Origin: Spirochaetota bacterium
Lineage (GTDB): Bacteria; Spirochaetota; Brachyspiria; Brachyspirales; JACRPF01
NCBI GenBank assembly: GCA_016214035.1
Contig: JACRPF010000004.1
Span: 1 to 64,000 of the forward strand
Length of the DNA stretch: 64,000 bases
Direction of reading: 5' to 3'
Part shown: positions 3,757-22,924 of the stretch, one piece after another
How positions within the stretch are numbered: position 1 is the stretch's first letter
Layout: every line of letters begins with the position of its first letter
Position numbers and translations under genes: made by a program
Notes under the pieces: model-generated
Database searches by the model: none
The model's input: the letters and a program-made list of their open reading frames with translations, nothing else
Told to the model about the DNA's origin: nothing

Positions 3757-4587
3757 ATGAGCGCGACAAATCTTATTTCCGGGAACGGATTGCCCATTGA
3801 AGCCGTCTATATCATGAGCGGCGCGGATTTTCCGGCGATTAACCGTGACATCGACTGGCGTGAACTCCCCTGTCTGCTCGTGGCAGAGCGTATCGGTGCG
3901 AGCTGCCGCGTGCGGTTCAGTGACGGCCATTCGCAGATCTACCGTTCCGGCGAGGCGATGATAATACCGCCCTATACGCGGCACCGGACGGAGATCATCG
4001 CATGCACGATCCCCGAGACAACGACCTATTGGGTCCATATCAATTATACCGTCGCTGGACTCCCGCTCTTCCCGGCCATTCCGCTGCCTGTATGGGCAGA
4101 CCGGAGGTGCGGCAGAACGCTGGGACGCATCGCAGGATCGTTCGCCGCAGTCGGCGGCTCATCGCTTGCCGACAGCGCCCGTATCGGCGAACTGAGCTAT
4201 CAGCTCCTGTCCGCACTGCTGTCGCTCGCTGATATAAAAAAACGGGTACTGGGTATGGTCACCGAACGGCTTCGACTCGCGCCGGTGTTCGCCTTCATCA
4301 GCGATCATCCGGGACGCACGGCATCCGTCGATGAGCTTGCATCTGTCATCGGGCTTTCGCCGTCGCGGTTCGCATCGCTTTTTCATGCGGTAACCGGCAC
4401 GACACCGATTGAATATCAGCGCACCGCACGCATACGCAAAGCGTCGGTGATGCTCCTGCAGGGAAAAAAGCTCGCTGAAATAGCGCGCACCACCGGATAC
4501 GGAACACCGTTCAGTTTCAGCAGGGCGTTCAAAGCTGTTACCGGCGCAAGTCCTGCGGCGTATAAGCAGCGGCATCAATCCATGTGA
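3757..4587 (+). CDS. AraC-family transcriptional regulator
   Basis: 276 residues from the ATG at 3757. A longer frame reaches back to 3553 but overlaps the decarboxylase gene out of frame and has a non-protein-like N-terminus, so it is rejected. The first 170 residues resemble a cupin-type sensor (GEAMIIPPYTRHRTEI around 65-82) that would bind a small sugar or oligosaccharide. The last 100 residues are a clear pair of AraC helix-turn-helix motifs, ending in the hallmark GYGTPFSFSRAFKAVTGASP. It has no ribosome-binding site and a TATACT box ends 6 bases before the ATG, so the mRNA may be leaderless. It lies next to a secreted polysaccharide-type protein and within reach of two lyase operons whose promoters carry tandem repeats of AraC-site design; that it controls them is inference. 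Confidence 0.88.
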   Translation: MSATNLISGNGLPIEAVYIMSGADFPAINRDIDWRELPCLLVAERIGASCRVRFSDGHSQIYRSGEAMIIPPYTRHRTEIIACTIPETTTYWVHINYTVAGLPLFPAIPLPVWADRRCGRTLGRIAGSFAAVGGSSLADSARIGELSYQLLSALLSLADIKKRVLGMVTERLRLAPVFAFISDHPGRTASVDELASVIGLSPSRFASLFHAVTGTTPIEYQRTARIRKASVMLLQGKKLAEIARTTGYGTPFSFSRAFKAVTGASPAAYKQRHQSM

Positions 4588-4637
4588 CCATAGCGCATCA
4601 CCCCGGACAGACGGTATGAAATAAGCGGTTCCGGGTA

Positions 4638-4666
4638 TGGACAACAGGAGCCGGCGGCAGTATAGT
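4638..4666 (+). promoter_or_regulatory. Sigma70-type promoter upstream of the secreted TIM-barrel-like gene
   Basis: TGGACA at 4638-4643 and TATAGT at 4661-4666 are separated by 17 bp, followed by GAGG seven bases before the ATG at 4696. The -10 lies inside an inverted repeat (4662-4680). Confidence 0.55.
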
Positions 4667-4680
4667 ATGAGGTATACTAT
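4662..4680. promoter_or_regulatory. Inverted repeat over the -10, possible operator
   Basis: ATAGTAT, five bases, then ATACTAT: a 7-bp inverted repeat that covers most of the -10 and the predicted transcription start of the gene at 4696. A repressor bound here would block the promoter. The half-sites are A/T-rich and partly follow from the -10 consensus itself, so function is uncertain. Confidence 0.35.
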
Positions 4681-4695
4681 CGTGCGAGGTAACCA

Positions 4696-6147
4696 ATGCA
4701 TCTCAAACCATTCAGGCTGCTGATTGCCTGCATCGCGTGCTTCGGTTTATTCCCGCTCGACCGGAATGATGTCGTCACCTTTAGCGATAAAGAAGAGAAG
4801 AAGGAATCGCTGACGCGGATATCCGCGGCCGTAGAAAACGACATCATCACCGCCGTCTATGCGGTTCCGGAAAACACCGCACTCGGCTATGCGTATGCCG
4901 GCGTGAGTGTAAACCTCACTCCCGATGAGAATGCGAGATCGCTGGTGTTTACGATCCGAAAAGACGCATCGGCTGTGCAGCCTAATCGCATCACGCTCAG
5001 GACCAAAACGGGCAAACGTGCAAAAGTTGATCTTCCGGCATACGGCAGCGTCACCGAAGAATGGAAAACGTTCCGAATATCGCTTGATGATTTCTCACTG
5101 TCACGTAACGACATCGCGTCACTCGCCTCGGCAGGCTTCAGTCTTGCCGGAAACAACACCAAGGACAACATCGACAGCGTATCGGGAACGGTGTGGCTGC
5201 GCGACATCCGGCTTTCCACCGAGACCGCTGCGGCAAAACAGATAGTACCGGACTACGCCTTTCTGTTAAACAGGAAAGCTCCGAAACCAGCCAAGGGTCA
5301 CGCAGGGTGGATATACCGTGAATCGGAAGCCCATATTGAACGTATCAAACGATATAACAAAGAGAACGCAGTACCGTTCCGTATGCTCTTTGTATATGCG
5401 GGGTCATACACGTTCACGCAGAACGGCGGCAGGCTTTCACCGCTCAAAACGGGAATACTGCAGTGGTTCCGCGAACGGCTGCCCGCCGAGACCGCCGTCT
5501 ACGCCACAATAGACGCGAGCGACGCAAAGACGCTCGGATCATATCCGCCTGCCGAACAGGAACGCCTCGCGAAACTCATCGCGCAGGCTGTAGACGATGA
5601 ACCTGCCGCAGCCGGAGTTCACTTCGATATCGAGCCCTACGACATCACGCAGCTGCCGTTCTACATCGCCGCCAAAAAAGCGATGCGTAAACCCGTAAGC
5701 GCGGCATTCGGGGCATGGGATATCCATGTGCTTTCCGTGGTGGATTATCCCGTCCTCATGGCGTACGATATGGCGCACACGCCGGACATATACCGTGCAA
5801 CGGTTGAAAAAGCATGCCGCTCATTCGCTATGGATGCCGATGCCGCAAAGTCATGTTTCTATCTCGGATTCCCCTTTGTCGCCGCGCAGGCGGAATGCGA
5901 ATACCGCATCAACCGCGAAACAGGCGCGCGTGAATCAACAGCATATACGATGGAACAGTATATATCCGCCGCCGTCGATGCATGCCGGGTTATACCGCAG
6001 ATATGCAGCGGCGATCTTTTCGGCGGTGTATCGGTCTGGGCATTTCCCGATGAGAACAAGAAAGGGATAGGGCCTCCGGCTGGGCGCTGGGGGTATTATC
6101 CCAACCACTTGAAAGAATCATGTCTTTCATTACTGAGCAATTTTTAA
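4696..6147 (+). CDS. Secreted protein with CIA30/CBM-like N-terminus and glycosidase-like barrel
   Basis: 483 residues. An N-terminal hydrophobic stretch (RLLIACIACFGLF) fits a signal peptide. Residues about 30-180 form a beta-rich module ending in SGTVWLRDIRLS, the pattern of CIA30/CBM11-like jelly rolls that also occurs in the nearby lyases. Residues about 200-470 look like a TIM barrel with HFDIEPYD near 309, which resembles the acid-containing strand-4 motif of GH18-like and related families, although the full DxxDxDxE is absent. No exact family was recognised; an extracellular carbohydrate-active role is inferred from architecture and from the adjacent AraC-type regulator. The start is supported by GAGG seven bases upstream and by a strong promoter. 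Confidence 0.65.
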   Translation: MHLKPFRLLIACIACFGLFPLDRNDVVTFSDKEEKKESLTRISAAVENDIITAVYAVPENTALGYAYAGVSVNLTPDENARSLVFTIRKDASAVQPNRITLRTKTGKRAKVDLPAYGSVTEEWKTFRISLDDFSLSRNDIASLASAGFSLAGNNTKDNIDSVSGTVWLRDIRLSTETAAAKQIVPDYAFLLNRKAPKPAKGHAGWIYRESEAHIERIKRYNKENAVPFRMLFVYAGSYTFTQNGGRLSPLKTGILQWFRERLPAETAVYATIDASDAKTLGSYPPAEQERLAKLIAQAVDDEPAAAGVHFDIEPYDITQLPFYIAAKKAMRKPVSAAFGAWDIHVLSVVDYPVLMAYDMAHTPDIYRATVEKACRSFAMDADAAKSCFYLGFPFVAAQAECEYRINRETGARESTAYTMEQYISAAVDACRVIPQICSGDLFGGVSVWAFPDENKKGIGPPAGRWGYYPNHLKESCLSLLSNF

Positions 6148-6177
6148 CAATCGAACATCTTGGCATTCAGTCCGCGT

Positions 6178-7371
6178 TCATGCGCTCACATGGACTACCG
6201 CATAGCCTTCATGCGCGAGAAGACGGTTCATCGTGTAGGGCGTTTTCGTGAACGTTTTCAGCCATTCCTTCTCGAGCTTTTCAAGCACAAGGATGTACGC
6301 GTCTCCGCCCTTCGACAATGCGCGGGCGACGGCATCGAGTTCGGCTCGGGCGACCTTCACACCCGCAGACGGCGACAGTTCGCCGATGAGAAGATCGAAC
6401 TTTTCATCGGGCTGTATGGCATCGGGAACATGCGCGAAGGGACGTATCTGTAAGGCATTGCCGGCGAGTTGATGTTGTACCGCATTACGCTGCGTATATG
6501 CCGCGGCAAGCAGATCGCGTTCAGCGACGATAACCGCCGCGTCCGGCCAGCGCTTTCGTGCGATCACCGGGAAAATACCGTATCCCGCACGAAAACAGAA
6601 TACGCGCTTCGGCTTCTGGTTCGCAAGGACATCCAGCATCACCGGTATGCCGCTTTTCAAACGTTTGGGGTCATCGCCGCCGAGATCGAACGGCCGCTGA
6701 AATGATATACCGTCGACAATCACCTCATCGCGATAATAAAGGTCTGCCATATCGTCGGCTACCGTAGCGGGGGCGCCTGTATCCGCAGCAAGCGAAAACA
6801 CCGCATGAGCGGCACCCGTTGCCTCCTCGCGAAGCGGCAATCCATTATCACCCGCAATGGCACTAATGACGGGAACAAGATCGCGAATAACCACGACACG
6901 AAGTTCGCCGTTCTTTGCCAGCCGCGAACGTCCGCTGACGATGAGCTTTTCCATGAACGGGCGACCGATGCGTGCGGGAACATTGCAGAGTATCCAGTCA
7001 TAGCGTTCATCACCAGAGGCTATATCGCGAAATCCGAGACTGCCGTGGATGCGTGTGTTGGAAAGCCGGTGCTCCTGTGCATTCACCAATGCCCACGCTA
7101 CGGCGAGCAGATCGCGGTCAACCATAACGACTTCCGCATCGGGGAATCGGGCGGCAACTGGAAGACCGAGCGCCCCATACCCGCAACCCATATCGAGCAC
7201 ACGACGGGGCTCGCGCTCCGGCAGATGATCGAGCAGCAGCAATGTGCCTTCATCGATGCGGAACGTCGAAAAGACATCGTGGGGCACTTTCAGCCTGAGC
7301 GTTGTGCCGAGTGTTTCATAGGAAAGCGTGGTCTTATACCACGGGTCGTGTATCGCGTTTTCACTGTTCAT
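6178..7371 (-). CDS. RsmC/RlmG-like class I SAM methyltransferase, duplicated domain
   Basis: 397 residues from the ATG at 7371, which has GGA six bases upstream; a start six codons earlier at 7389 has none. Two methyltransferase-like halves follow each other, as in the rRNA guanine-N2 methyltransferases RsmC and RlmG. The first half has an intact SAM-binding motif I (VLDMGCGYGALG, about 57-68) and an acidic VDRD motif II. The second half is degenerate at motif I (FCFRAGYG, near 260). The catalytic NPPF of RsmC/RlmG is NVPAR (about 129) in the first half and GELSP in the second. In E. coli RsmC the C-terminal half is the catalytic one, so this arrangement is inverted and the target is unknown. 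It is divergent from the diguanylate cyclase gene. Confidence 0.65.
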   Translation of the reverse strand: MNSENAIHDPWYKTTLSYETLGTTLRLKVPHDVFSTFRIDEGTLLLLDHLPEREPRRVLDMGCGYGALGLPVAARFPDAEVVMVDRDLLAVAWALVNAQEHRLSNTRIHGSLGFRDIASGDERYDWILCNVPARIGRPFMEKLIVSGRSRLAKNGELRVVVIRDLVPVISAIAGDNGLPLREEATGAAHAVFSLAADTGAPATVADDMADLYYRDEVIVDGISFQRPFDLGGDDPKRLKSGIPVMLDVLANQKPKRVFCFRAGYGIFPVIARKRWPDAAVIVAERDLLAAAYTQRNAVQHQLAGNALQIRPFAHVPDAIQPDEKFDLLIGELSPSAGVKVARAELDAVARALSKGGDAYILVLEKLEKEWLKTFTKTPYTMNRLLAHEGYAVVHVSA

Positions 7372-7423
7372 AGTTCCGTTATATATCATATTCGCTTTTT
7401 TCCCAAGTCGGTATCGGATAAAA

Positions 7424-7451
7424 TTGCATTAATCATGCATTTCGATATAAT
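7424..7451 (+). promoter_or_regulatory. Sigma70-type promoter giving a leaderless diguanylate cyclase mRNA
   Basis: TTGCAT at 7424-7429 and TATAAT at 7446-7451, 16 bp apart. The ATG follows the -10 by six bases, so the predicted +1 is the start codon itself. No Shine-Dalgarno sequence exists before the ATG. Confidence 0.6.
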
Positions 7452-7457
7452 ACGAAA

Positions 7458-8753
7458 ATGATCGACATACCCAAAGTTATTGCCGCCCGCATACGATCTT
7501 ATTATATTTGGTCTCCCCTTATCACCACCGTGATTCTGGCGGTAATCCAGATACTCTACTATTCCCAGAAAGACGCCGTCGTTTCCATACTCGATTCGTT
7601 CTACTATAATCCTGTCATCGTTGCGCTGGCAGCGCTCGTGCTTATTGTCACGCTGGTCTCCTACCCGCGTGTATACAAGGTGAAAGTGCTCTTGTCCGGA
7701 TTCATGCTCGCCTCACTCTTTATTATTTTCATCCTCCTGCGTACAAAGATAGAAATTCCGGTGCCGTTCACCGGAACGGCGATACGCTTTTACGAAAGCG
7801 CCAAAAACATACCCGACGAATTCCGGCTCCGCTTCCTCCTGTTGCTGTTCAACCTGAATCTCCTAGCGATCATGATAATGCCCGCGAAGGTCTCATATTC
7901 CGCCGGCCGCCGCCTGTCGTTCCTGCCGCTGGTACTGAATATCATGCTTTACATCGCGGTGATATTTGTCGTATCCGGATTGCAATACACGCACATCATG
8001 CGCAATTTTATCATTTTCTTCAACAGTTATGTGCTATGGCTCAACATTGCGCTCTTCATCGCAATACTCATTCTGTCGTTCTTCCGTATCGAGGAAGGGC
8101 ACAATTACGGCAGTGTTATCGTGAGCATCGCAATTGTGGTGCTGTTCGCGGCATTATATCCGGCAGAAAAACGTCTCATGATGATAGACCTCGTCATCAT
8201 GGCCATCGTGCTTCTCGCGGGAATCGGCTATCACGTGCTTGAATCGCTCCGGCACAGCGCACAGATGGACCCGCTCATGAAAATATATAACCGCCAGCAC
8301 ATGTCTGCGATACTTGCCGGTGTGGCAAACATCGATCTCGGAACGGATTACAGCATACTCATTGTTGACATAGATCACTTCAAGCACATCAATGATACAC
8401 ACGGACACCAGGCCGGTGATGCGGTACTGTATGACGTTGCGCAGATCATCAAAACATCATCGCTGCCCGAAGGATTCCCCTGCCGTTACGGCGGTGAAGA
8501 GATAATCATATTTCTCAAAGACCTGGTGAGCGACAAGGCCGTCGCGAAAGCGGAGGAGATCCGGCTCGCCATTAAAAAAGAAAAGATCGCCTACAAGGAA
8601 AAAAAGATACCCGTGACCGCGAGCATCGGCATTTCATGCAACGCGGGCCGCGGCAAAAGTTTTGAGAAGATGATCAAGGAAGCAGACGGCGCCCTCTACG
8701 AGGCAAAACGCACCGGCCGCGACAAGGTAGTACTCGGCGGCAAACGAAAATAG
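7458..8753 (+). CDS. Membrane-bound diguanylate cyclase (GGDEF)
   Basis: 431 residues. The first 265 residues contain about seven to eight hydrophobic segments (for example around 18-35, 50-65, 75-95, 130-150, 170-190, 195-212, 222-240) and no recognised sensor name. The GGDEF domain begins near 267 (DPLMKIYNRQHM) and carries VDIDHFKHINDTHGH, AGDAVL and the active-site signature RYGGEEI near 342, so it should make cyclic di-GMP from two GTP. The usual RxxD inhibitory site just before the signature is absent (SSLPEGFPC), so product inhibition at the I-site is not expected. The nearby PilZ protein (53.2 kb) shows the organism has c-di-GMP receptors. The gene appears to be expressed from a leaderless transcript. 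Confidence 0.9.
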   Translation: MIDIPKVIAARIRSYYIWSPLITTVILAVIQILYYSQKDAVVSILDSFYYNPVIVALAALVLIVTLVSYPRVYKVKVLLSGFMLASLFIIFILLRTKIEIPVPFTGTAIRFYESAKNIPDEFRLRFLLLLFNLNLLAIMIMPAKVSYSAGRRLSFLPLVLNIMLYIAVIFVVSGLQYTHIMRNFIIFFNSYVLWLNIALFIAILILSFFRIEEGHNYGSVIVSIAIVVLFAALYPAEKRLMMIDLVIMAIVLLAGIGYHVLESLRHSAQMDPLMKIYNRQHMSAILAGVANIDLGTDYSILIVDIDHFKHINDTHGHQAGDAVLYDVAQIIKTSSLPEGFPCRYGGEEIIIFLKDLVSDKAVAKAEEIRLAIKKEKIAYKEKKIPVTASIGISCNAGRGKSFEKMIKEADGALYEAKRTGRDKVVLGGKRK

Positions 8754-8770
8754 CAGCCGCCATCCGCAGA

Positions 8771-11700
8771 TTACTTCAGCGGAACTATCTTTATCCAATC
8801 GACATTCATCCCGCCGCCGCCTTTGTTTATCAGCGTGATCGTATGGTCTCCTTTTATCAGCGGTATGCGAAGACCGCCGTTCCCGGCAAACCATGCGTCC
8901 TGCCAGTCATCTTTCGATGAACTCCAGCCGCCGGTTGAGAGAAACACGAATGCGGCACCGTCCTTCACCGTTTTCCCATCGACAATGACAGCCCGTCGTA
9001 CCGCTTCTTCCGCGGTACAATAACGTATCTGTATTCCATAGGTGCCGTCTTCAGGCACGCTGTATTTCCATGTAACCGAATGCCCGTCATTGTCCCAGAG
9101 ATTGAACGACTTACCCGAATTACCGAGTTTATCGACGATCTTCACCGTGCCGCCTTCTTCAGCAACGAACGTTTCTGCCTCTATCTTCACCGCCTTATCG
9201 AGCATCGGTTTAAAATCATCGCCGAGCACTGCGGCTTTCAGCGGTTCGGTTGCCTGCGGGGCGAAACGCACCACGAGCGTTACCGCACTCACATTAGAAA
9301 GCGCTATCGCAAGCTTACGCATGCCGGCATTTTTGTTCTGATTCGTCGGGTCCGGCGATGTTGCAAGCGGCACGGCGTTCATAACGCTGAAACGCGCATC
9401 AAAAGGCGACCTTATTTCAGCCGTAAGCGCCGCACCGGGACGCGTGAGTACCGCCCGTTTCCCGTCGGGTGTTATCGTTACGGCCGCTTTCGTGTGAGCG
9501 AACCACCACACCGTTGCCGGTTCCGCGGCCTCGATAACATCGGCCACCTCAATGGCTTTTCGCCCGTCAATCAGCGACGCGGTACGTATGACTTTCTTCG
9601 CCTGCGGCCGGTACGCCTCGGTGAGATCCACCGACGCCTGCGCCGACTGCGGCAGCGACTCGAAAACGCTTATTTTCGTAACAGCTTTCTTCAACTGCCC
9701 CGCATCCGCAGACGGGGCGATGACGAGTGTATTATGACCCTCCGGCCGTATGCGGTAGAACTCGTGATGCTTGTAGGAATGCTGATACGATATATAGGTC
9801 ATCCACTCGCTGCCGAGGTCTTCGAAAAAGCGCTGACCGCCGCTGTCGAGCACGAAGCTTCCGAGGTCGTAATGAAAGTGATTGACACCGTTCGCGCCGG
9901 ATTTCAAGCCGATGTAGAGCGCGTTCGTATCCGCCCATGATCCGCAGAGCAGCGCCACTTCGGTCTTGCTGAAATATTTATCGGGAGACACCGATGCCGG
10001 CGTCCGTCCTTCAAGTGATGCATCGAAATACATGAGTTCTTCAGCAGCGCCGGAGATGCGCGCTTTCTCGAACAGATGATAGAGAGGATTTTTGAACTTT
10101 TTCGCGAACCAGAAAAGCTCAGGGAACGATCCCGTTTTACCGGCGCCCGCATCGGCGAAGTTGAACGAATAGCCGCTCGGACCGGTGGTATAGACGGGGA
10201 AATCACCGGTCTTGCAGAAACCGCCGAACGTATCGAGCACGCCGAAATTGGTGCCGAGCGCGGATTCATACGACCCGATCATCGGAATCAGATACTTGAT
10301 TGAATAATGCCAGTAGCCGGGGCCCTCGTACCATGCGCCGTCGGGTTCGAATTCCTCCATCACGGCCTGAAACGATGCGAACGCGTTGGTGATGATATCC
10401 ACGGCGAGATCGGGCTCATCCTCGAACACGGCGAGTGCCGCCACGGTGGAACCGCCGTTACAGACAAAGTTCCAGTTATTGTTGCCGTTCACCCACCACA
10501 CGCTTGGTCCCTTGCCGCGATAGGCCGCCGCGGAATTGGTGAGGCCCAGATTCACGATCGCATTGCGGATGAACTTTTTCTCGTCGTCGCTCCATGCATT
10601 ATAGAGCCAGTCATACGCCACGCCGAATGCGTGCATCATCTCCGCGGTGTCGAGATAGTGCCGCGGGTTCCAGTCCTTGAATTTTCCCGCCTCCTCAAGT
10701 TCCGCCCAGAGACGCTCCTTGTATTTTGCGTCACCGTCAAGCAGATACATCATACCAAGCGTATACGCGCGCCCGAGCACGCGGCGGCTTGTCGTCAGGA
10801 GCCTGAGTCCGTCCGGTGTCTCATACTTCGATGTTGCTTCACCCAGCGCCTTATCAGCGCGCGACTTGAGCATGGTGTACGACTTTTTCGCCGTTTCATT
10901 CCCGGCGAGATCTTTCTTTATACGTGCTACATCTGCATCGGTGATGAGCATCCGCGGATGATTTTTCCGCACGAGCGCCATGAGTGCTTCACGTGACGGC
11001 GGCGGTATAAGCACTTTGCGCGATCTCACCGATCCGAACGCGCCCTTGACCAGCCGTATATCGTCGATATAAAGCACCGTATCCGGATTCGGTGTTATCC
11101 CCCACCCGGACGCATTCAGCGATATTTTGTCTATCTTCTGAAATCCGGCGGGTTCGCGGGATTTTCCCATGTCTGAAAAGAGTATGGTCACTTCCTGCCA
11201 TCCCGTCCAATCGACAGTGAAGTTCTTTGCAAAGTAGGAAAACTTTGCGGAATCAGTTCTTGAATCAAGGATAAGCGCAATATCCTGCCGCGTGTTCTTT
11301 TCAGAATACACCCGGAACGATATCGCGTTATATCCCGTCCAGTCGTGCAGTATTTTCGCGGTGTTTACCGACGTGTTTTTCGGCATATCTGCCCAGCGCA
11401 GGGACGCTTTGCCCTGTTTCACATTTTTTTCAGACCGTTCGCCGCCGGCCCACGCATCGTTCTCAAAACCGAATGTCGCAAGCGTATCCGCGTCAAGCCC
11501 GGGCGCCTCGACAGCTTCCCCGAAATCAAGCGATGCCAGATGCACCGTTGTCTTCGCGGTACTCGTAGAATACGCCCATACCACGCAGAATGCGGCATTG
11601 TCCGGAGCTTTCGCTTCCCATTCGCATGGAGTGAATGCGCGATCGGCTTCAAATATCTTTGAGACTTCGGGAATGATCTTCTTTTTATCTTTATCCTGCC

Positions 11701-12019
11701 AGTTCATATAGAGCGCCACTTTTCCGCCCATGATGACGGCCCGCTCCCGATAGGTTTTCCCCGGGGTCACCGGAACCGTCTGTGCGAACCCCACACCGAC
11801 CTTGGGATTATCGTCGGTTATCTTCACCGCGCGTTTCCCTTCAACGGTTACGATTTCTATCCTGGTGGTTGTCCCGTCAGGTGCGGGAGTATAGGTCCAT
11901 CCGTCCGGAGTCCCGTTACCATCGGCATCGGTGAATGCGGCGTTGGTGAATGACACGGCAGCATCCGCAGCAGACAAAGTCCCGGCAATAATACAAAGCG
12001 TTATACAGCGGAACAGCAT
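8771..12019 (-). CDS. Large secreted heparinase II/III-type polysaccharide lyase with three binding modules (lyase 1)
   Basis: 1082 residues with a signal peptide ending in LSAADA. Module order: jelly-roll A (about 21-165, starting NAAFTDADGNGTPDGW), CIA30-like module B (about 180-335, ending DTVLYIDDIRLV), an alpha/alpha toroid with NHPRMLITDADVARI, NGNNNWNF and EGPGYWHYSIKY, a heparinase II/III-type beta domain with NHFHYDLGSFVLDSGG near 709, and a C-terminal CBM6/35-like module C ending in GGGMNVDWIKIVPLK. It should cleave uronic-acid-containing polysaccharides (alginate, heparin-like or similar) by beta-elimination outside the cytoplasm; the substrate is not readable. It is a close paralogue of the gene 17 bases upstream and shares its transcription unit; GGAGAG precedes the ATG. 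Confidence 0.85.
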   Translation of the reverse strand: MLFRCITLCIIAGTLSAADAAVSFTNAAFTDADGNGTPDGWTYTPAPDGTTTRIEIVTVEGKRAVKITDDNPKVGVGFAQTVPVTPGKTYRERAVIMGGKVALYMNWQDKDKKKIIPEVSKIFEADRAFTPCEWEAKAPDNAAFCVVWAYSTSTAKTTVHLASLDFGEAVEAPGLDADTLATFGFENDAWAGGERSEKNVKQGKASLRWADMPKNTSVNTAKILHDWTGYNAISFRVYSEKNTRQDIALILDSRTDSAKFSYFAKNFTVDWTGWQEVTILFSDMGKSREPAGFQKIDKISLNASGWGITPNPDTVLYIDDIRLVKGAFGSVRSRKVLIPPPSREALMALVRKNHPRMLITDADVARIKKDLAGNETAKKSYTMLKSRADKALGEATSKYETPDGLRLLTTSRRVLGRAYTLGMMYLLDGDAKYKERLWAELEEAGKFKDWNPRHYLDTAEMMHAFGVAYDWLYNAWSDDEKKFIRNAIVNLGLTNSAAAYRGKGPSVWWVNGNNNWNFVCNGGSTVAALAVFEDEPDLAVDIITNAFASFQAVMEEFEPDGAWYEGPGYWHYSIKYLIPMIGSYESALGTNFGVLDTFGGFCKTGDFPVYTTGPSGYSFNFADAGAGKTGSFPELFWFAKKFKNPLYHLFEKARISGAAEELMYFDASLEGRTPASVSPDKYFSKTEVALLCGSWADTNALYIGLKSGANGVNHFHYDLGSFVLDSGGQRFFEDLGSEWMTYISYQHSYKHHEFYRIRPEGHNTLVIAPSADAGQLKKAVTKISVFESLPQSAQASVDLTEAYRPQAKKVIRTASLIDGRKAIEVADVIEAAEPATVWWFAHTKAAVTITPDGKRAVLTRPGAALTAEIRSPFDARFSVMNAVPLATSPDPTNQNKNAGMRKLAIALSNVSAVTLVVRFAPQATEPLKAAVLGDDFKPMLDKAVKIEAETFVAEEGGTVKIVDKLGNSGKSFNLWDNDGHSVTWKYSVPEDGTYGIQIRYCTAEEAVRRAVIVDGKTVKDGAAFVFLSTGGWSSSKDDWQDAWFAGNGGLRIPLIKGDHTITLINKGGGGMNVDWIKIVPLK

Positions 12020-15000: not shown

Positions 15001-15354
15001 AGGCTTGATCATTTTTTTATTTTCATCATGCCAGTTCAAATATATCTTCAGCCCGCCGCTCCCCTTCATGCGTACCGTCTGGCGGTAAAAATGCCCCGCG
15101 GTCACCGGTATCATCTGCCCCACACCCACACCGACCTTAGCATCAGTATCGACGATATGAACTGCATTCACGCCGTCCGCGGCGGCCATCTCGATCTTTG
15201 TCGTTGTCCCGTTCGGAGCCGGCCGCAGTTCCCAATTATCGGGAATGCCGTCGCCGTTACCATCCGTAAGCGTCGGGTTTTTGAGGATATTATCGCCGGC
15301 GGAGAGCGTTGCGGCGAGTATGACAAATAATACAAGCATCGTTAAATGTCGCAT
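12037..15354 (-). CDS. Large secreted heparinase II/III-type polysaccharide lyase with three binding modules (lyase 2)
   Basis: 1105 residues, same module order as its neighbour: signal peptide (ending near LSAGD), jelly-roll A (NPTLTDGNGDGIPDNW), CIA30-like module B (VLGFETAAWSGIELS to ILHLDAISL), toroid (REHPRLLFTAADIPRM, RGGNNWNF, EGPGYWHYSIKY), heparinase-type beta domain with GVSHGHLDLGSVIVDSGG near 734, and C-terminal module C ending GGGANLDWIKLVPLK. The two lyases differ throughout, so this is an old duplication, probably with different bond or length preference. GGAG lies five bases before the ATG, and the predicted transcription start is about 40 bases upstream, driven by the promoter and tandem repeats at 15402-15466. 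Confidence 0.86.
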   Translation of the reverse strand: MRHLTMLVLFVILAATLSAGDNILKNPTLTDGNGDGIPDNWELRPAPNGTTTKIEMAAADGVNAVHIVDTDAKVGVGVGQMIPVTAGHFYRQTVRMKGSGGLKIYLNWHDENKKMIKPEHSKDVALTSAFKEYEYAEKAPAGAAFCLVWIYTTSTGTSDFYLASAEVEDTGTELTAKTQAVAAETVSEEEFAAVLGFETAAWSGIELSTASVKEGKYAGLWKDHTKIKAVSTSKIRHDLSGFEAMSLWIYSEKKTGEQVVVIFESRSDPKQFSYFSYSFTVNWAGWKEVRIPFSAMNRSRDPVGFQKIDVISFNVGGWGGTAMDESILHLDAISLKKGTAPASALKAAYVPKEVRLPAPSKETYLSLLKREHPRLLFTAADIPRMKKIVHEDARMTNVYALLIKSADDTLGQKVSIYEIPDGLRLLATSRRVLVRSYTLGLAYVLDGDVKYKDRLWKELEEAANFKDWNPRHFLDTGEMMQAFAVAYDWLYASWSDEQKKVIRTAMIEKGLNVSADAYRGKGPNYGWTRGGNNWNFVCNGGAAIAALALLDEEPDLCAGVLAEAFSSIQTTLPKFEPDGNWYEGPGYWHYSIKYLVPHFASLVSALGTNFGITAAFPGFMKTADFPIYTTGPGGAFNFADAGGARPGTYSAPEFNWFSRELKNPFYTWYQSQRPGNAAENILYYDPSLPATAPAIAFDRYFRGDEAAVISMRSSWDDKTALFAAIKGGKNGVSHGHLDLGSVIVDSGGVRFIEDLGSDNYNMPGYFGGARWTYYRLRAEGHNTILINPTDGPDQNAKAESEVLSFDTNAQSARAVLDMSAAYPDAKKVVRTLSLAEGRSAVRIEDEIVLDAEADLWWFMHTKAQVLLSKDKRTATMTVGTAKASLALESPAGAAFEVLEAKPLPSSPNPPMQGKNNGVRKITVHMPNAKGAVAIRAVFRPMQGGSAYKPLMSEIPAGFTVGGDALIFEAESFTGQTGGNAEITGKIGNSGKSIKFWDDAEHAINWKAEVPVAGDYGIVVRYCGETDPAVRAFSIDGKRVPGEESQFYFPPTGGWSSDKDNWKEVWLSVDGKGVRLSLEKGEHTITAINIGGGGANLDWIKLVPLK

Positions 15355-15401: not shown

Positions 15402-15431
15402 AGTATAGTAAATCAGCGCCGGTACTGTCTT
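15402..15431 (-). promoter_or_regulatory. Promoter of lyase operon 1 (lyase 2 and lyase 1)
   Basis: On the minus strand AAGACA (15426-15431) is followed after 18 bp by TATACT (15402-15407). The same hexamers at the same 18-bp spacing occur before lyase operon 2 (22859-22888). The -35 overlaps the proximal copy of a tandem repeat, as expected for an activator-dependent promoter. Confidence 0.65.
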
Positions 15432-15466
15432 GGAAGAATGCGACATTTGTTGGAGGAAAAAGACAT
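15430..15466 (-). promoter_or_regulatory. Tandem 17-bp repeats, putative AraC-family activator site 1
   Basis: Read on the plus strand, TTGGAAGAATGCGACAT (15430-15446) is followed three bases later by TTGGAGGAAAAAGACAT (15450-15466): 13 of 17 positions agree and the period is 20 bp, two helical turns. The proximal copy touches the -35 hexamer. A near-identical pair precedes lyase operon 2. Direct repeats 20-21 bp apart overlapping the -35 are the classical arrangement for AraC-family activators. Confidence 0.6.
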
Positions 15467-15486: not shown

Positions 15487-15516
15487 GTGCGAGCATAATT
15501 TAAAATACCACGCCTT

Positions 15517-16167
15517 CTAATATTTCAATGATATTACGCAACTATTTGGAAACAACTGAATCGTTACAGGGTTATTTTTTTCACTATAATCGCTTAAAGT
15601 ATAATACCCCAAGACAGATAACACCGGAGATACAATAAGTGATGACAATATCAATAGCCCATAAATACCTGCAGTTTCATAATATGGCTTACTATTTAAG
15701 AAGGTATAACTTAATGTAAAAAGCAGCGCTGATGGTATTAAAGGAAAAACATATGCGCCCATCGACGGCACAAGTTCAATACTATTTTTTGAAAAAAATG
15801 AAACACCTGTGGCGCATCCGACAGGCGCACCTATAAATATTCCATATGCCATTCCCTGTGGTTTATCTGGACCGGTAAGTGCCCAACCAATAAACATAGA
15901 TGCTGTAGTAGTGATGCAAGCACACCAAATTGCCTCTTGTGTAAGGGAAAAAGATGATAATCCATCATAAAAATTGGTTGCTTTAAGATTACTATTACCC
16001 ACTTTTGATTCATTCAAAATAGTACACGAACTTGATTTTAATATCATGTCAACAGTAAATATTTGGCTATACTCATTCGCCATATTCGCCTCTGCGAATA
16101 ATGGGTAAAATAGAATGCAAGACAATATTCCGACCGTAATGTTTATGACTTTCCTTTTGTGTAGCAT
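15517..16167 (-). CDS. AT-rich orphan exported/membrane protein, function unknown
   Basis: 216 residues from the ATG at 16167, chosen because MLHKRKVINITVGILSCILFYPLFAEA is a typical signal peptide; a start nine codons earlier (16194) would put polar residues ahead of it. Neither start has a ribosome-binding site. After the signal peptide and a polar stretch of about 60 residues there are about four hydrophobic segments with glycine-rich turns (MFIGWALTG, GIFIGAPVGCATG, ALLFTLSYTFL, GLLILSSLIVSPVLSVLGYY). No family was recognised. The gene is much richer in A/T, with many AAT, ATA and AAA codons, than the GC-rich genes on both sides, which suggests recent acquisition. It sits between the two lyase operons on the same strand. 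Confidence 0.55.
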   Translation of the reverse strand: MLHKRKVINITVGILSCILFYPLFAEANMANEYSQIFTVDMILKSSSCTILNESKVGNSNLKATNFYDGLSSFSLTQEAIWCACITTTASMFIGWALTGPDKPQGMAYGIFIGAPVGCATGVSFFSKNSIELVPSMGAYVFPLIPSALLFTLSYTFLNSKPYYETAGIYGLLILSSLIVSPVLSVLGYYTLSDYSEKNNPVTIQLFPNSCVISLKY

Positions 16168-16355
16168 ATTATTACATACAGTGTAATCCAGCATTTCCGC
16201 CGCGTCAAGCCGACTTTACAGCATTTCTATCATATAATAAATCGACGATTCGATAAGTTCGCCGACCATATACTCGCTGCTATGCCTTGCTTATCGCCAT
16301 ATAACAGCTGCTTGATTTCATGAAAATGGTGTTTTTAACCTAGGCAGTTGTAGCA

Positions 16356-16488: not shown

Positions 16489-17742
16489 TTACCTGAATGT
16501 CTCGAGTGCCCGTTTAATCGCATGGAGACGTGCTGTTCCTTCATCGAGCGTGGGACAGATCCAGCCGCCTTCGACGAACTCGCTCCAGTTATATATCAGA
16601 ATGGATTTTACTTCGGTATTTTTCGGATTATCGATAACCCATTGACATGCGGACCTGACATTCTCCGTGAGTTCATCGGCAGTGCCGCGGGTAAACCATG
16701 CTCCCTCCGCGGGCCTGTCGTATAACGGGAATCGCGTCACCTGTGCGGGCCGTGAATCCCAGCCGTCGTTCACCGGCGGAATCACCTGCCGCCCCGCCGA
16801 CCTGCAGGCATCGCGGAACGCCGCATTCGCTTCAGCCAGTTTTGCGTAAGGATACTCAATTGCTCTTTTATCCCTGTTCTTCCGGATCTCCGGATGTATC
16901 GGCGCACCGTATCCGCTCACGGCATCATAACCGATATCATCCAAAAATCTGCTGTTCTCGCCGCCGAGCCATATCATGGCTACGTAATAGGGTTTGCCCA
17001 GTCCCGCTGCCTCGCACCTGCGGGATAGTTCCTCAAAACCCGCTTTCATATCGACATAGGTCTTGAAATATGCAAACTTCTGAGCGCCGAATATAAATAC
17101 CAGCGGCCGATTACCGAGAACCTTCTGGTAATTTTGCTCCCTGAAGAGCCGCACAAGCTCATCCGCGGTTGTTTTCCATTCCGCAACGGGGTCCCAGGTG
17201 CTGTCAGCGCCTTTTCCGGCGGCGTTCGCAGCTCCGGGATTATCGGGGTCATACTCCTTCTGCTTCGGGCCGAGCAAATGGTCCTGCAGAAATAGACAGT
17301 AGTTCAATCTGTCCTTATACTTACTCTTCCGATGGAATGACGGCAGATCCGGCGTATACCATTTCCATTTCGGATCATTTCGCAGATCCCTCGGCCAGAC
17401 GCGGTAGTTCACCGCCCAGTAATCAAGTCCCGCCGATGCTGCATACAGAATATCCTGATCCATCACGTTCTGCTGATATTCATCCATCAGGATCTTTCCG
17501 TCACGGACATCGGCATAGTACGGAATACGGGTATGCCATTGCGGGTCTTCCAGATAGCGTGTCTGCTGAAACTCCAGCTTCCACGCCGACCATCGGATGA
17601 CACCGGTGAGTATTCCTTCTTTTCCCGCGGCATACGCAACAGTTCCGATAATAAAAAACGCGATGACTACGGCGCAACAGACTCTTCTACGGTATGCCGC
17701 AGTGAAACGCGGTGACTCGCCGAATCCATTGCATTTTTCCAT
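16489..17742 (-). CDS. GH99/WbsX-like glycosidase-type secreted protein
   Basis: 417 residues from the ATG at 17742, chosen because GGGG lies five bases upstream; a longer frame from 17778 would overlap the previous gene by 20 bases. A transmembrane or signal segment (VCCAVVIAFFIIGTVAYAAG, about residues 21-40) is followed by a barrel-like domain. The segments ASAGLDYWAVNYRVW, RPLVFIFGAQKF and IYNWSEFVEGGWICPTLDEG match the WbsX / GH99-like pattern, in which the latter block is usually NxWNEWxEGxxxxP. Proteins of this group act as endo-glycosidases or are found with glycan loci; the substrate here is unknown. It is the last gene of lyase operon 2, starting 16 bases after the deacetylase stop codon. 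Confidence 0.7.
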   Translation of the reverse strand: MEKCNGFGESPRFTAAYRRRVCCAVVIAFFIIGTVAYAAGKEGILTGVIRWSAWKLEFQQTRYLEDPQWHTRIPYYADVRDGKILMDEYQQNVMDQDILYAASAGLDYWAVNYRVWPRDLRNDPKWKWYTPDLPSFHRKSKYKDRLNYCLFLQDHLLGPKQKEYDPDNPGAANAAGKGADSTWDPVAEWKTTADELVRLFREQNYQKVLGNRPLVFIFGAQKFAYFKTYVDMKAGFEELSRRCEAAGLGKPYYVAMIWLGGENSRFLDDIGYDAVSGYGAPIHPEIRKNRDKRAIEYPYAKLAEANAAFRDACRSAGRQVIPPVNDGWDSRPAQVTRFPLYDRPAEGAWFTRGTADELTENVRSACQWVIDNPKNTEVKSILIYNWSEFVEGGWICPTLDEGTARLHAIKRALETFR

Positions 17743-17758
17743 ATCGCCCCAACGCGCC

Positions 17759-19414
17759 TTACCACATAATATCTGCAAGCCCGTCCTTTACCGGACGCCG
17801 TTCACCGTTATAGACGATCTCGGTAACGCCTTCGGGTACTTTCAGCGTCAGCGGGAATGTCCGCAGATACGGATGCAGCCAGGGACGTGTCATGGTGAAC
17901 GTCACTCCGTTCGCATCTTTTTTGCCGCCGTCAACCTGCGTGTTCATCCGCATCCAGCGCCAGACGTACACCTCGCCCGCCGTTGTATACCAGATATCCG
18001 GATTGCCTTCAAGCGAGGCCAGCACCTTTTCCAGCGTAGCCATGCCGCTCCCGGCCAATTCATAACTGTGCCCCCATACATGAAAGACAAGCCCGTCCTT
18101 CACCGTAAGTTCCTTGAACCGCGCGCTGATACGCTCCGCGCCGGTATTGAAATGAAAATCCGGCGTATACCCGTACGGATTCTTTATCTCATCGATATAG
18201 TTCGGTCCCGTTGCTGTGCCCCGCGCCGACCATATACCGGCATTCGAAACACTGCGCACCACGTAATCACCCTGCTCGTCGTATGCGGGTGAATAATTGA
18301 ACGGATAACCGAACGATATGACCGGATGTCCTACCATTCCTTCAAGAAGCCGACGCATATTCGCTGTCTCGGCGTAGCATCGTTCGTAGCCGGAAAGATA
18401 ATACGCGGGATGATTCCATGAATGATTGCCAATCTCCATGCCGAGCGCTTCAAGTTCGGCGAGTTTGGCGAGCATCTGCGAGTTGCGGTTCATGAAGAAC
18501 GTGCCGCGGAACCCGTGTTTTTTCATCGTCTCGGCAAGCGGCATGTCCATATCCCTACCGTCGTCCCATGTCGTGAAGATGGTATATTTTTTACCGTAGG
18601 GAAAAACTGCCGGCGATGGAGCAGCTCCGCCGGAATATCCGACCAGCGTAATCGTTCTCGTCTCCGTCTTTGCCGTGTCTATGGTCTGGATAAGTTCTCC
18701 GCCGTTCTCAACGGGCATTGCCGGAACCGCTTCCACCGGATGCCGTTCGATGATAACATTCGCCGCCGTACCGTCCACGGTTATGCGTTCCGCTGCGGAT
18801 GACAGAAACAAATATGCCTGAGTTCCCGCCGGCGTCGTGAATGAACGTTCGCCGCATTGCCATGTTGCCGATACTTTTGCGGGAAACGATGCGCGTATCC
18901 GTCCCGGTGCAAGCGGAACCGGCAATGTAACCGAGCCGCCGTCCACCGGACAGTCGAGATACCAGCGCATATTCGCTGTCGCTGATACATCAAGCGGTTC
19001 AACGCTTACCGAGCGAATGCCGGCGGTATCCTGTCCGCGCTGTGAGCTTTTGCGATACAGCATACCGCGTGACTGCATGGCCGTGAACATGGCGAACGAT
19101 TGCTTCCCCGATGTGTTGATGTAGTAACAATCCACAAGCGGTGTGCGGCCCGCGACAAAGCCGATATGCTGGTTCTTTGCACCGCCGGTCTTTCCGTTGA
19201 AATCAACGGTCACCTTCCATGCGCCCGCGGGAAGTTCTGAAGCGAATTCCCAGCGGACTTCATCTTTCACGCCCATGGCGGCGGTAAGATAAACCGTATC
19301 GCCTTCTTTATTCTTTGCACCACCCGTTGCGGATGCGGCGTCAAGCGTTATCGTTTCGCCGAGCGCCAGCGATGTTAACATCATCCCTGCCGTCAGACAC
19401 AGCATCAAGTTCAT
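17759..19414 (-). CDS. Secreted polysaccharide deacetylase (NodB domain) with N-terminal beta module
   Basis: 551 residues with a signal peptide ending LALGE. Residues about 20-240 are beta-rich with no recognised family. The NodB homology domain starts near 275: TWDDGRDMD supplies the catalytic and metal-binding aspartates (TFDDG type), and GNHSWNHP (near 330) the two metal-binding histidines; FGYPFNYSP and HVWGHSYEL are the later motifs. It should remove N- or O-acetyl groups from a polysaccharide outside the cytoplasm. The last 70 residues form another beta segment. Its ATG overlaps the stop of lyase 3 by four bases (ATGA), so the two are translationally coupled, which suggests deacetylation and lyase action on the same glycan. 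Confidence 0.85.
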   Translation of the reverse strand: MNLMLCLTAGMMLTSLALGETITLDAASATGGAKNKEGDTVYLTAAMGVKDEVRWEFASELPAGAWKVTVDFNGKTGGAKNQHIGFVAGRTPLVDCYYINTSGKQSFAMFTAMQSRGMLYRKSSQRGQDTAGIRSVSVEPLDVSATANMRWYLDCPVDGGSVTLPVPLAPGRIRASFPAKVSATWQCGERSFTTPAGTQAYLFLSSAAERITVDGTAANVIIERHPVEAVPAMPVENGGELIQTIDTAKTETRTITLVGYSGGAAPSPAVFPYGKKYTIFTTWDDGRDMDMPLAETMKKHGFRGTFFMNRNSQMLAKLAELEALGMEIGNHSWNHPAYYLSGYERCYAETANMRRLLEGMVGHPVISFGYPFNYSPAYDEQGDYVVRSVSNAGIWSARGTATGPNYIDEIKNPYGYTPDFHFNTGAERISARFKELTVKDGLVFHVWGHSYELAGSGMATLEKVLASLEGNPDIWYTTAGEVYVWRWMRMNTQVDGGKKDANGVTFTMTRPWLHPYLRTFPLTLKVPEGVTEIVYNGERRPVKDGLADIMW

Positions 19415-22400
19415 TTTGCCGTCCCTGCACCGATATCTTCAAATTCAAACGACTGCACATATGTCTCGCCGGTGTTCGAACTCCACGAATATATCCATGC
19501 CTTGCAGAACGCGGCGTTTGCCGGAGACTGCTCCGAATACTCCGTGAGCTTGAACGCATCAGTTCCGCCGTCAACGCGTTTTGACATTTCCTTGCCGATC
19601 TGTTTTTTATCCGCGTCATACCAGACGAAATAGAGCGCTATCGGCGCGCCCTTGAGCATCGCCCGCTCGCGGTACATCCTTCCGGGTTTCACCTCGAGCA
19701 TCTGCTGCAGTCCCACGCCGTTCTTCTTGTCGTTGTCGACGATATGCATCGCCGGTTTGCCGTCAGCTGTGACACGTGTTATTTTCGTCGTGTCGCCGTT
19801 CGGCCCCGGGCTCATCAGCCAGCCTTCCGGTTTGCCGTCATTGTCGGCATCGTCGAATGACGGATTGGCGTTCAGGATGTCTTTTCCCGTTGCGGGGACG
19901 ACCTTTATCCAATCCATGTTCATGCCGGCCATTGCGCCGACGAACGTGAGCGTATGTTCGCCCGCGGCGAGATTGAAACGCATGCCGCCCGTTTTCGATG
20001 CGAGCCACACGTCGCGCCAATTATCCTTGTCGGAACTCCAGCCGCCGGTCTCGGCAAAACAGAAAAGATTCGTCCCCTGCCCCGCCGGCTTTCCGTCGAT
20101 ATAGAGTGCGCGCATCGGAGCGTCGGCGCTGCAGTAGCGTAGCCGTATGCCGTAATCGCCCGCGGACGGCGCTGAGAACTTCCACGACAATGCATGCCCC
20201 GGTTCATCCCAAAGCTTGAACGATTTTCCCGAATCGCCTATTTTTGTAACCACTGCCACTTTACCTTTCTGCTCATCGGTGAAATCCTCCGCCTGAATGA
20301 CGATGGCCTTTGCCGAATCGGGTGTAAACACACCGAGATTTTCGGCGCGCCCTTCATTATCAACTTTTCCCGGTAACGCAAACCCCGCTGGATCAACCTT
20401 GCGAATCAGGAGTGTGACGACGGCTTTCTTCACCGGCTTTTCAAGATCGATGCCGATGCGCAGCGGCTTGGACGCCTTATATCCCATATCCTCATCGATG
20501 ATATCTTCACGGAACGTAACCTTCTCGCCGCCCGCGTCGACCTTCACCTCAACCGCCTGCTTGCTGTTATACACGATGAACGTGTCGGGTGCGGTCTTCA
20601 GCCATTTGTCATATGTGAGTACCGCGGTGCTGAAGCTCATCGGCCGATCCGCCTCGAACGTATCGCTTACGGATACGGTGATTTCCGGCGCGCGTTTATA
20701 GATGAAGGTCCGTTTCAATCCGGTGATGCCGTCCACTTTATCATACGCGCTCGCATAGTCGATGACGAACCGGTCTGCATCATCGCTGAACTTTGCCTCG
20801 ACTATCTTCGCCATGGCGTCGCGTCCTGGCCGCTGCTGAACGCCGTCAATGACCGGCACTGAATGACCGAACGAACTTAAGGCCTTGCTGTCATACCGCT
20901 TCGCACTGAACGTCCGCGCGGTATAGACTTCGTTCCCCGGGTCAATTATCAGCGGCAGTTTCGCGCCTTTTGTGGCGATGACGAAGGAACCCAGATCGTT
21001 GTGATTATGCTCCTCAGCGTTATGACCGCCTTTGAACGATGCGGCGAAGGCGTTCGGCGCGTCGGGGTCTTTCGGACGGCAGTTTAATATCCCCGCCTCT
21101 TCAAAGAAGTCCCTGAAACTGTCGCCCGCTTTCGGTGCGAACTTCGGATACGGTTGTGCGGTGTAGTATATCGATGATGGAAAAAACGTGAGCGCGAACG
21201 ACTGCGGATCGCCGCCGTTAAGCGGTATCCCTTTCGCCTGCCATGTGGGCATCTGTGCCGGATCGTACATGCGGTCCATGAAATACAATATCCAGCTCGA
21301 AGGCTTCGCCGTCGGCCCGCAGTCGGCATATGCCGGATACAATCCGTCGATGAGTTCCATCCGTTTGCCGAAACGGCCTATTGCCGCCACCTTGGCATTG
21401 TTGAACCAGTCGATCTTTCCCTTTGTTGCTAAAGAAACCCCTGCTGCGATCAGCACAAAATTGCCGAAACCGTACCCCCAATAGCCGATGCCCTCGGAAC
21501 AGTAACCGTCATCCGTCATACCGTGCAGAAAATACGGCAGACCTATCTCGGCGCCGTGTACAAAAAGCGCCCGCTCCTCGGCGCTGTCTATCACCGCAAG
21601 TGCGGCGAGCACCACCCCGGCGTGGCACACCGCATTCCAGTTATTATTGCCGTTCATCCACCAGAAACCGCCGCGGTCCTCACCGGTGATAAGCCGCGGT
21701 TTATACGCATTGAATATTCGCCGATAGAGTTCATTCGTGAGCGTTATGCGCGTTTCTTCCAAAAGCTTTTCACCGAGCATCCGGTATGTACCGGAGAACA
21801 CGAGCGCGCGCGCTGCCGCCGACAAATCAACCTCAATTCGTTTACCGTTATAATTATCAAGCCTTCCGTCATGCGCCGACAGCGTCCATGATTTATCTGA
21901 CGCAATACTTTTCACCGCCTCTTCCACCGCGGCAATAAAACGCCCCTTATTCTCGATGCACTCGGCCAGGAGAACATCCCTCAGATAACCGGTGCGCCTG
22001 CCCATCATACCGTCGCCGGTGCGCTTGCCCGATCGCGTATAGGCGAGATAGTCATCGTCGCTCCAGGCAGTCATGCCGGATTTGAGCTGACGCTCGCCGT
22101 TCTCGACAATCTGTTTCGCCTTTTCAGGGTCAATACTCTCCCATGTCTTCCGGTCGCTCACCGGCGGCAGCAGTACCGCCTCCGGTTTTTCCGGAAGCAT
22201 GGCGGCAATCTCTTTCACCCGGCTCATGTCTGGCATCGGCGTCTTTTTCAATTCCAGTTTCGATTCGGCTTTCATTTCCGGCATAGCTCCTTCGACAAAG
22301 CGGATGTCGTCAACCCAGATCACGGACTCGGGATTCGGCTTTAGCCCCCACCCGTCGGCGGTAATCATGATGGAATCGATCTGCTTCCAGCCCGCAGGAT

Positions 22401-22797
22401 CGCGGCTTGCGCTGAATTTTTTGAACGGTATTTTAATCTCTTTCCATCCGTCCCAGTTCACTGTCAGCGGATAGCTGTAATAGGAGAATACCTTCGGGTC
22501 TTTGCGTGAATTAAGGATGAGCATGAGCGATTCGCCGGTATTCTTTTCGGAAAACATCCAGAGCCGGAGTTCATTATATCCGCTCCAGTCATGGTCAATC
22601 GCATCAATCGATATTGATTTGTTCTGCAGATGATCTTTCCAGAGGCCGGAGCTCTTCCCCTCTTTCACGTTCTTCTCCGACAGCTCGATGCCTTTCCATC
22701 CCGTTTTTTCAAAACCGAGCAATGCCTGAAAATCAGGCGAAACGGCCGAGAACACACTTGACGCCGCAAGTAGTGCGGTAAAAATGATGCGCATCAT
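19411..22797 (-). CDS. Large secreted heparinase II/III-type lyase with rearranged binding modules (lyase 3)
   Basis: About 1128 residues. GAGG lies just before the ATG-ATG pair at 22797/22794, which starts a clean signal peptide (MMRIIFTALLAASSVFSA); a start ten codons earlier at 22827 is possible. Module order differs from lyases 1 and 2: CIA30-like module B comes first (LGFEKTGWKGIELS to VIWVDDIRFV), then a toroid (MNGNNNWNAVCHAG, SEGIGYWGYGFGNF), the heparinase-type beta domain with EEHNHNDLGSFVIATKG near 597, module C (FTDEQKGKVAVVTKIG to MNMDWIKVVPA), and jelly-roll A at the very C-terminus (NPSFDDADNDGKPEGW), the module that is N-terminal in the other two. The catalytic part is also the most divergent of the three. 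First gene of operon 2. Confidence 0.84.
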   Translation of the reverse strand: MMRIIFTALLAASSVFSAVSPDFQALLGFEKTGWKGIELSEKNVKEGKSSGLWKDHLQNKSISIDAIDHDWSGYNELRLWMFSEKNTGESLMLILNSRKDPKVFSYYSYPLTVNWDGWKEIKIPFKKFSASRDPAGWKQIDSIMITADGWGLKPNPESVIWVDDIRFVEGAMPEMKAESKLELKKTPMPDMSRVKEIAAMLPEKPEAVLLPPVSDRKTWESIDPEKAKQIVENGERQLKSGMTAWSDDDYLAYTRSGKRTGDGMMGRRTGYLRDVLLAECIENKGRFIAAVEEAVKSIASDKSWTLSAHDGRLDNYNGKRIEVDLSAAARALVFSGTYRMLGEKLLEETRITLTNELYRRIFNAYKPRLITGEDRGGFWWMNGNNNWNAVCHAGVVLAALAVIDSAEERALFVHGAEIGLPYFLHGMTDDGYCSEGIGYWGYGFGNFVLIAAGVSLATKGKIDWFNNAKVAAIGRFGKRMELIDGLYPAYADCGPTAKPSSWILYFMDRMYDPAQMPTWQAKGIPLNGGDPQSFALTFFPSSIYYTAQPYPKFAPKAGDSFRDFFEEAGILNCRPKDPDAPNAFAASFKGGHNAEEHNHNDLGSFVIATKGAKLPLIIDPGNEVYTARTFSAKRYDSKALSSFGHSVPVIDGVQQRPGRDAMAKIVEAKFSDDADRFVIDYASAYDKVDGITGLKRTFIYKRAPEITVSVSDTFEADRPMSFSTAVLTYDKWLKTAPDTFIVYNSKQAVEVKVDAGGEKVTFREDIIDEDMGYKASKPLRIGIDLEKPVKKAVVTLLIRKVDPAGFALPGKVDNEGRAENLGVFTPDSAKAIVIQAEDFTDEQKGKVAVVTKIGDSGKSFKLWDEPGHALSWKFSAPSAGDYGIRLRYCSADAPMRALYIDGKPAGQGTNLFCFAETGGWSSDKDNWRDVWLASKTGGMRFNLAAGEHTLTFVGAMAGMNMDWIKVVPATGKDILNANPSFDDADNDGKPEGWLMSPGPNGDTTKITRVTADGKPAMHIVDNDKKNGVGLQQMLEVKPGRMYRERAMLKGAPIALYFVWYDADKKQIGKEMSKRVDGGTDAFKLTEYSEQSPANAAFCKAWIYSWSSNTGETYVQSFEFEDIGAGTAK

Positions 22798-22858
22798 GGA
22801 CCTCAGGAATTCGCTATGGCGTTTCATGAACTGCCTGGCCGCGGGGATAGACCCGATC

Positions 22859-22888
22859 AGTATACCAAAATAGCAGCCGCACTGTCTT
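22859..22888 (-). promoter_or_regulatory. Promoter of lyase operon 2 (lyase 3, deacetylase, WbsX-like)
   Basis: Minus-strand AAGACA (22883-22888), 18 bp, TATACT (22859-22864): same hexamers and spacing as the lyase operon 1 promoter at 15402-15431. The spacer sequences differ, so the conservation is not simple recent duplication of the whole region. Confidence 0.65.
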
Positions 22889-22924
22889 GGAAAAATGCGA
22901 CATGTGGTTGAAGAAAAACGACAT
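22887..22924 (-). promoter_or_regulatory. Tandem 17-bp repeats, putative AraC-family activator site 2
   Basis: Plus-strand reading: TTGGAAAAATGCGACAT (22887-22903), four bases, TTGAAGAAAAACGACAT (22908-22924); period 21 bp. The proximal copy differs from that at 15430-15446 at one base, and the distal copy matches its counterpart at 14 of 17. Same position relative to the -35. Confidence 0.6.

Follow-up and report, generated by a model that had tools for sequence, protein, structure and literature searches.

The two lyase operons described here probably constitute the depolymerising part of a dispersed regulon under AraC-type control, which would cut a uronate-containing polysaccharide and import the products through an ABC transporter. 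The window, namely the whole 64,000-nucleotide stretch of DNA that was analysed, corresponds to positions 1–64000 of contig C14 in a 5.2-Mb genome (G000) of 22 contigs and 98% estimated completeness, whose host is an uncultured spirochaete relative. The system is of an ordinary kind, secreted uronan lyases built from known parts, and its uncommon trait is the arrangement, in which an operator links a regulon scattered through the genome of a spirochaete lineage. Our literature searches returned neither a described system matching this gene combination nor any paper linking spirochaetes, heparinase, sulfatase and polysaccharide lyase.

Gene content and limits of the lyase operons

As proposed in a preliminary description of this DNA, polysaccharide lyases are arranged here in two operons, both located on the minus strand. 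Operon A comprises lyase 3 (19411–22827; 1138 residues, or 1128 from an internal ATG), a secreted NodB/CE4-type deacetylase (17759–19414) and a secreted WbsX/GH99-like protein (16489–17742), while operon B contains lyase 2 (12037–15354; 1105 residues) followed by lyase 1 (8771–12019; 1082 residues) after a 17-nt gap with a ribosome-binding site. The three giant lyases announced earlier were all confirmed as Hepar_II_III_C proteins, though they fall into two families, PL35 for lyases 1 and 2 and PL33 for lyase 3. Both operons are parted by a 225-aa ORF (15517–16194) with a GC content of 0.35 against a background of about 0.55, which had no database matches and is possibly a recent insertion.

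The single 19-kb region delimited previously merges unrelated modules. An AraC gene (3757–4587, plus strand) is followed by a gene for a secreted "barrel" protein of 483 aa (4696–6147, plus strand), for which Pfam, NCBIfam and PHROGs gave no match. Between this pair and the lyases lie a methyltransferase gene (6178–7389, minus strand) and a GGDEF gene (7458–8753, plus strand), both of which had gone uncited. The AraC–barrel pair is kept in the sister genome G001 on contig C3 (44% and 49% identity), away from the G001 lyases on contig C81, so that the pair represents an independent module and both genes were rejected as members of the locus in which they had been placed; AraC-type regulators are matched about 150 times in the whole of G000. 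A GH18-like motif, GVHFDIEP, was spotted by eye in the barrel protein.

The lack of SusC/D, sulfatase and transporter genes had been regarded as a further peculiarity of the region. SusC/D and sulfatase genes are indeed absent from the 19 kb, and the main genes between 57 and 30363 gave no Pfam match to SusC/D, but 33 sulfatase-family matches appear elsewhere in the genome, suggesting a sulfated-glycan lifestyle; none of these 33 belongs to the operator-linked regulon described below. Since the host is a spirochaete relative, this locus should not be measured against the SusC/D loci of Bacteroidota.

The lyase 3 and deacetylase genes overlap by four bases (ATGA), as originally noticed, and the WbsX-like protein likely starts at the ATG at 17742, 17 nt past the deacetylase stop. 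A model along the lines of the preliminary description would have lyase 3 and the deacetylase act in succession on the same acetylated uronan, inside one locus governed by the adjacent AraC regulator. The overlap, the presence of the AraC gene at about 4 kb from the closest of the lyase genes and the intact CE4 metal and catalytic residues of the deacetylase agree with such a model, this protein matching PF01522 with 52 bits and D284, D285, H331 and H335 of its Asp-Asp and HxxxH motifs being invariant in homologues. Nevertheless, it appears very unlikely when the genomic context of relatives is considered. Out of at least 483 relatives of lyase 3, 80 were kept for locus comparison, and a homologous deacetylase appeared in 0 of the 80 lyase-3 loci of other phyla (fetched flanks, short on small contigs) and was also absent from the sister-genome lyase cluster, while full-length homologues (31–36%) sit in other contexts, for instance in a Lentisphaerae genome with a DapA/NanA-type aldolase close by. 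The coupling was hence rejected as a conserved substrate clue, and the AraC–barrel pair, as a separate syntenic module, likewise argues against the model. A structure prediction of the deacetylase obtained from 3 sequences (pLDDT 40) was left out of the argument. The WbsX-like protein is a marginal match to PF14307 (26.2 bits versus a gathering score of 25.1) and showed no PDB match. Within the dispersed regulon that we favour, the deacetylase and the WbsX-like protein might remove side groups or flanking sugars.

Catalytic families and binding-type modules of the lyases

A profile of lyases 1 and 2 with their relatives matched the PL35 structures 8khv, 8khw and 9o3q at E-values of about 7e-117 to 2e-103 across the whole catalytic core, the next-best family being PL15 (3a0o, E 7e-24), and both enzymes are on this basis PL35-like. 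Lyase 1 keeps N191, N192, Y246, H401, H403, D405, D421 and H457 in a mapping on GAGase II, with the catalytic set Asn192/Tyr246/His401 and the Mn ligands H403/D405/D421/H457 all identical in that numbering, and the lyase 2 equivalents were located via alignment. In GAGase II, mutants of N192, Y246, H401 and the four Mn ligands lost all or much of their activity (PMC12088678). Beta-elimination by the PL35-like and PL33-like enzymes alike would depend on an Asn that neutralises the carboxylate at C5, with a Tyr and a His acting as base and acid. Another PL35 enzyme, GAGase III, displays a weak alginate activity linked to a His (PMC12088678), whose position is occupied by Asn in lyases 1 and 2. 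Compared with the PL35 GAGases (GAGase II, 8khv; GAGase VII, 8khw; the 9o3q chondroitinase), lyases 1 and 2 have the same catalytic core, Asn/Tyr/His set and Mn ligands, but they are about 33% identical to GAGase II, carry three extra binding-type modules, are paired in one operon and appear without SusC/D context.

The profile of lyase 3 retrieved the PL33 structures 8r6z, 8r75, 8r70 and 8r73 at about 1e-63 to 1e-60 (best 4e-63), with the best PL35 structure at 3e-38, which marks this enzyme as PL33-like. In a comparison with one PL33_1 member, BtPL33 (8r6z), lyase 3 is 26% identical and keeps R103, H154, L174, N238, W239, Y291, H444, Y470 and F475, thus presenting the same catalytic core and named catalytic residues as the PL33 lyases. 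The position of BtPL33 W242 is a Val in lyase 3, as also seen in subfamily PL33_2, which includes a gellan lyase (PMC11848413). Lyase 3 differs from BtPL33 and its relatives in this low identity, in its multimodular build and in its near relatives, since Planctomycetota, Lentisphaerota and Verrucomicrobiota account for most of the 80 kept sequences, which also include a copy in G040, a genome of the same phylum as the host. Identities of only 33% and 26% mean that the specificity of the characterised enzymes is not transferable to any of the three lyases.

Outside their catalytic cores, the three enzymes have three binding-type modules in common, whose names derive from weak Pfam matches or from similarity to other modules. 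Lyase 3 displays the order signal peptide, CBM11-like module (residues ~30–190), PL33 core (~200–810), CBM35-like module (~832–979) and CBM4/9-like module (~985–1134), whereas the order in lyases 1 and 2 is CBM4/9-like, CBM11-like, PL35 core and CBM35-like. The C-terminal module of lyase 3 and the N-terminal module of lyase 2 are 48% identical, and the N-terminal module of lyase 3 shares 46% identity with one module of lyase 1. The occurrence of one binding set on two catalytic families suggests a common target, and the modules could keep lyases 1–3 on the same material. These modules are present as well on other secreted proteins of G000 and G001. A 585-aa protein encoded on contig C18 of G000 (L080:8337–10094) contains the binding-type modules, 62% identical to those of lyase 3, without a lyase core, and adjoins a 1272-aa CBM protein.

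A common operator-promoter and its copies in the genome

An identical 22-base core is located 5' of both lyase operons; it occurs twice in the window and in none of 100 shuffles, which upholds the joint control of both operons put forward in the preliminary description and suggests that they would be co-expressed. Operator-promoter 1 (22859–22924, minus strand), 5' of lyase 3, contains the direct repeats ATGTCGTTTTTCTTCAA (22908–22924) and ATGTCGCATTTTTCCAA (22887–22903), and operator-promoter 2 (15402–15466, minus strand), 5' of lyase 2, contains ATGTCTTTTTCCTCCAA (15450–15466) and ATGTCGCATTCTTCCAA (15430–15446), in both cases followed by AAGACA, 18 nt and TATACT. The repeat unit, ATGTCG..TT...CAA, is thus present in two copies 20–21 bp apart, abutting the −35 motif (AAGACA). 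Promoter-like matches in the region were no more numerous than expected by chance, so that the two sites are informative only through being identical to each other. Direct-repeat sites from which AraC-family proteins activate transcription are laid out in this way, beside the −35 motif. Hence, we infer that an AraC-family protein, for which G000 offers about 150 candidates, activates transcription by binding both repeats.

Searching the 5.2-Mb genome with the core pattern at up to 3 mismatches yielded 6 sites (0 with the reversed control), and a second pattern, CCAAGACA-N16-19-TATANT, yielded 5 (1 in the control). The distal repeat, which lies outside both search patterns, recurs at 20–21 bp in all five good sites. 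The remaining site at C16:188612 of G000 fits the pattern at 3 mismatches and was attributed to chance, its distal repeat and −10 motif being misfits. Three good copies fall outside the window, directly 5' of an ABC operon on contig C2 and of beta-helix genes on contigs C4 and C21.

The C2 operon (L187:10815–15908) consists of two genes of an ABC sugar transporter, the first encoding a 1005-aa protein with a solute-binding region apparently fused to a MalF/UgpA-type permease and the second a 687-aa MalG/UgpE-type permease that has a long N-terminal extension. Because the operator precedes this operon, the transporter missing from the lyase locus is probably supplied in trans, and its absence ceases to be the peculiarity that had been claimed. 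This MalFG/Ugp-type system would take up the oligosaccharides released outside the cell.

The C4 and C21 genes (L188:13861–16308 and L186:5897–8803) encode secreted beta-helix paralogues of 815 and 968 aa, 55% identical, which may attack the same polymer or its relatives. The predicted structure (pLDDT 90) most resembled the Klebsiella K1 capsule lyase and related phage depolymerases, followed by GH110 and mannuronan epimerases; given that the model matched many polysaccharide-active beta-helix folds at TM values of about 0.3–0.5, the fold does not fix the reaction type. The family spans Lentisphaerae, Planctomycetota and spirochaete genomes at about 45–77% identity, and the 77% core identity to Lentisphaerae GWF2_49_21 suggests a recent transfer of the gene.

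The same operator could belong instead to a general, starvation-type activator of secreted carbohydrate-active genes, both operons then being independent enzyme sets with different substrates. In G001, two sites of operator type precede non-lyase genes, including an oxidoreductase gene, and the host of G000 is a generalist, with its abundance of AraC-type and sulfatase-family matches, all of which would fit such an activator. Against it, just five good sites exist in 5.2 Mb despite many carbohydrate-active genes, the same three binding-type modules are present on all three lyases, and lyase-3 homologues of other phyla have PL35 or beta-helix homologues as neighbours; we therefore consider a general activator unlikely. 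A fixed regulon is nonetheless contradicted by the sister genome, where the operator was not found 5' of the lyase cluster and sites of its type precede other genes; the G001 sites on contigs C18 and C54, devoid of the distal repeat, were treated as chance.

Neighbourhoods in relatives, candidate substrate and biological meaning

The grouping of these genes in a dispersed uronan regulon is partly reflected in the loci of relatives. The conserved synteny that had been advanced as a check appeared for the adjacency of lyase 3 and PL35 enzymes, found in the sister genome and in two Verrucomicrobia loci (L153 and L163, with a weaker PL35-like neighbour in L149), but not for the deacetylase coupling. 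In the sister cluster on contig C81 of G001, orthologues of lyase 3 and lyase 1 lie side by side, with 69% identity each; this cluster adds a 961-aa module protein and an Alginate_lyase plus Hepar_II_III_C protein resembling oligoalginate lyase, whereas it lacks lyase 2, the deacetylase, the WbsX-like gene and the operator. In a Verrucomicrobia MAG, an ORF of at least 4066 aa (L163:12028–24225) located right after the lyase-3 homologue begins with a PL35-like lyase. Three Lentisphaerae loci, one of them from Oligosphaera ethanolica, contain a beta-helix homologue some 3.4 kb downstream of the lyase-3 homologue, a neighbourhood that provides independent support for the regulon grouping. As in the glycosaminoglycan loci of Bacteroidota, such as those of B. 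thetaiotaomicron (PMC6994673) and Roseihalotalea (PMC13027841), PL33/PL35-type lyases for acidic polymers appear under common control; unlike them, the system described here has no SusC/D, its parts lie on several contigs tied by the operator and uptake is assigned to an ABC transporter.

The presence of PL33- and PL35-like lyases with conserved catalytic residues supports the secreted breakdown of a uronate-containing polysaccharide that was anticipated in the earlier reading. Enzymes of both families together act on hyaluronan, chondroitin, heparosan/heparan sulfate, gellan and, weakly, alginate (PMC11848413, PMC12088678). As judged from the sequences, the likeliest substrate would be a glycosaminoglycan-like uronan, an acidic polymer that the secreted enzymes would cleave via beta-elimination. 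GH88/GH105 above the cut-off and KduI were not found in the whole of G000, and given the estimated completeness of 98% their true absence is likely. They were accordingly dropped as backing for a glycosaminoglycan pathway, and this negative result, which leaves the unsaturated products unaccounted for, counts against our explanation.

A different target, alginate or another non-glycosaminoglycan uronan such as a gellan-like polymer or a bacterial exopolysaccharide, would change only the substrate and overlaps with our explanation in everything else. The gellan lyase of PL33_2 and the weak alginate activity of GAGase III (PMC11848413, PMC12088678) are compatible with this target, together with the oligoalginate-lyase-like protein of the sister cluster, the missing GH88/105 and KduI, and the proximity of the predicted beta-helix fold to capsule depolymerases and, to a lesser degree, mannuronan epimerases. 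In contrast, lyases 1 and 2 have an Asn in place of the His needed for the alginate activity of GAGase III, and glycosaminoglycans are the preferred substrates of characterised PL35 enzymes; such a substrate thus seems possible though rather improbable. It is doubtful that the genome-scattered regulon acts on an acidic polymer outside the classical glycosaminoglycans by means of an undescribed family of beta-helix carbohydrate-active enzymes and a GH88/KduI-independent route for unsaturated products.

Without SusC/D loci, bacterial polysaccharide systems are hard to spot because their parts are scattered. In the spirochaete relative under study, a single operator sequence was enough to gather lyases, probable helper enzymes and a transporter from different contigs, in a grouping partly confirmed by gene neighbourhoods of other phyla. 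If our explanation holds, it would offer a motif-based way to assemble scattered polysaccharide systems, the widespread beta-helix family would become a candidate for assay, and PL33/PL35-type glycosaminoglycan chemistry would reach a spirochaete lineage.
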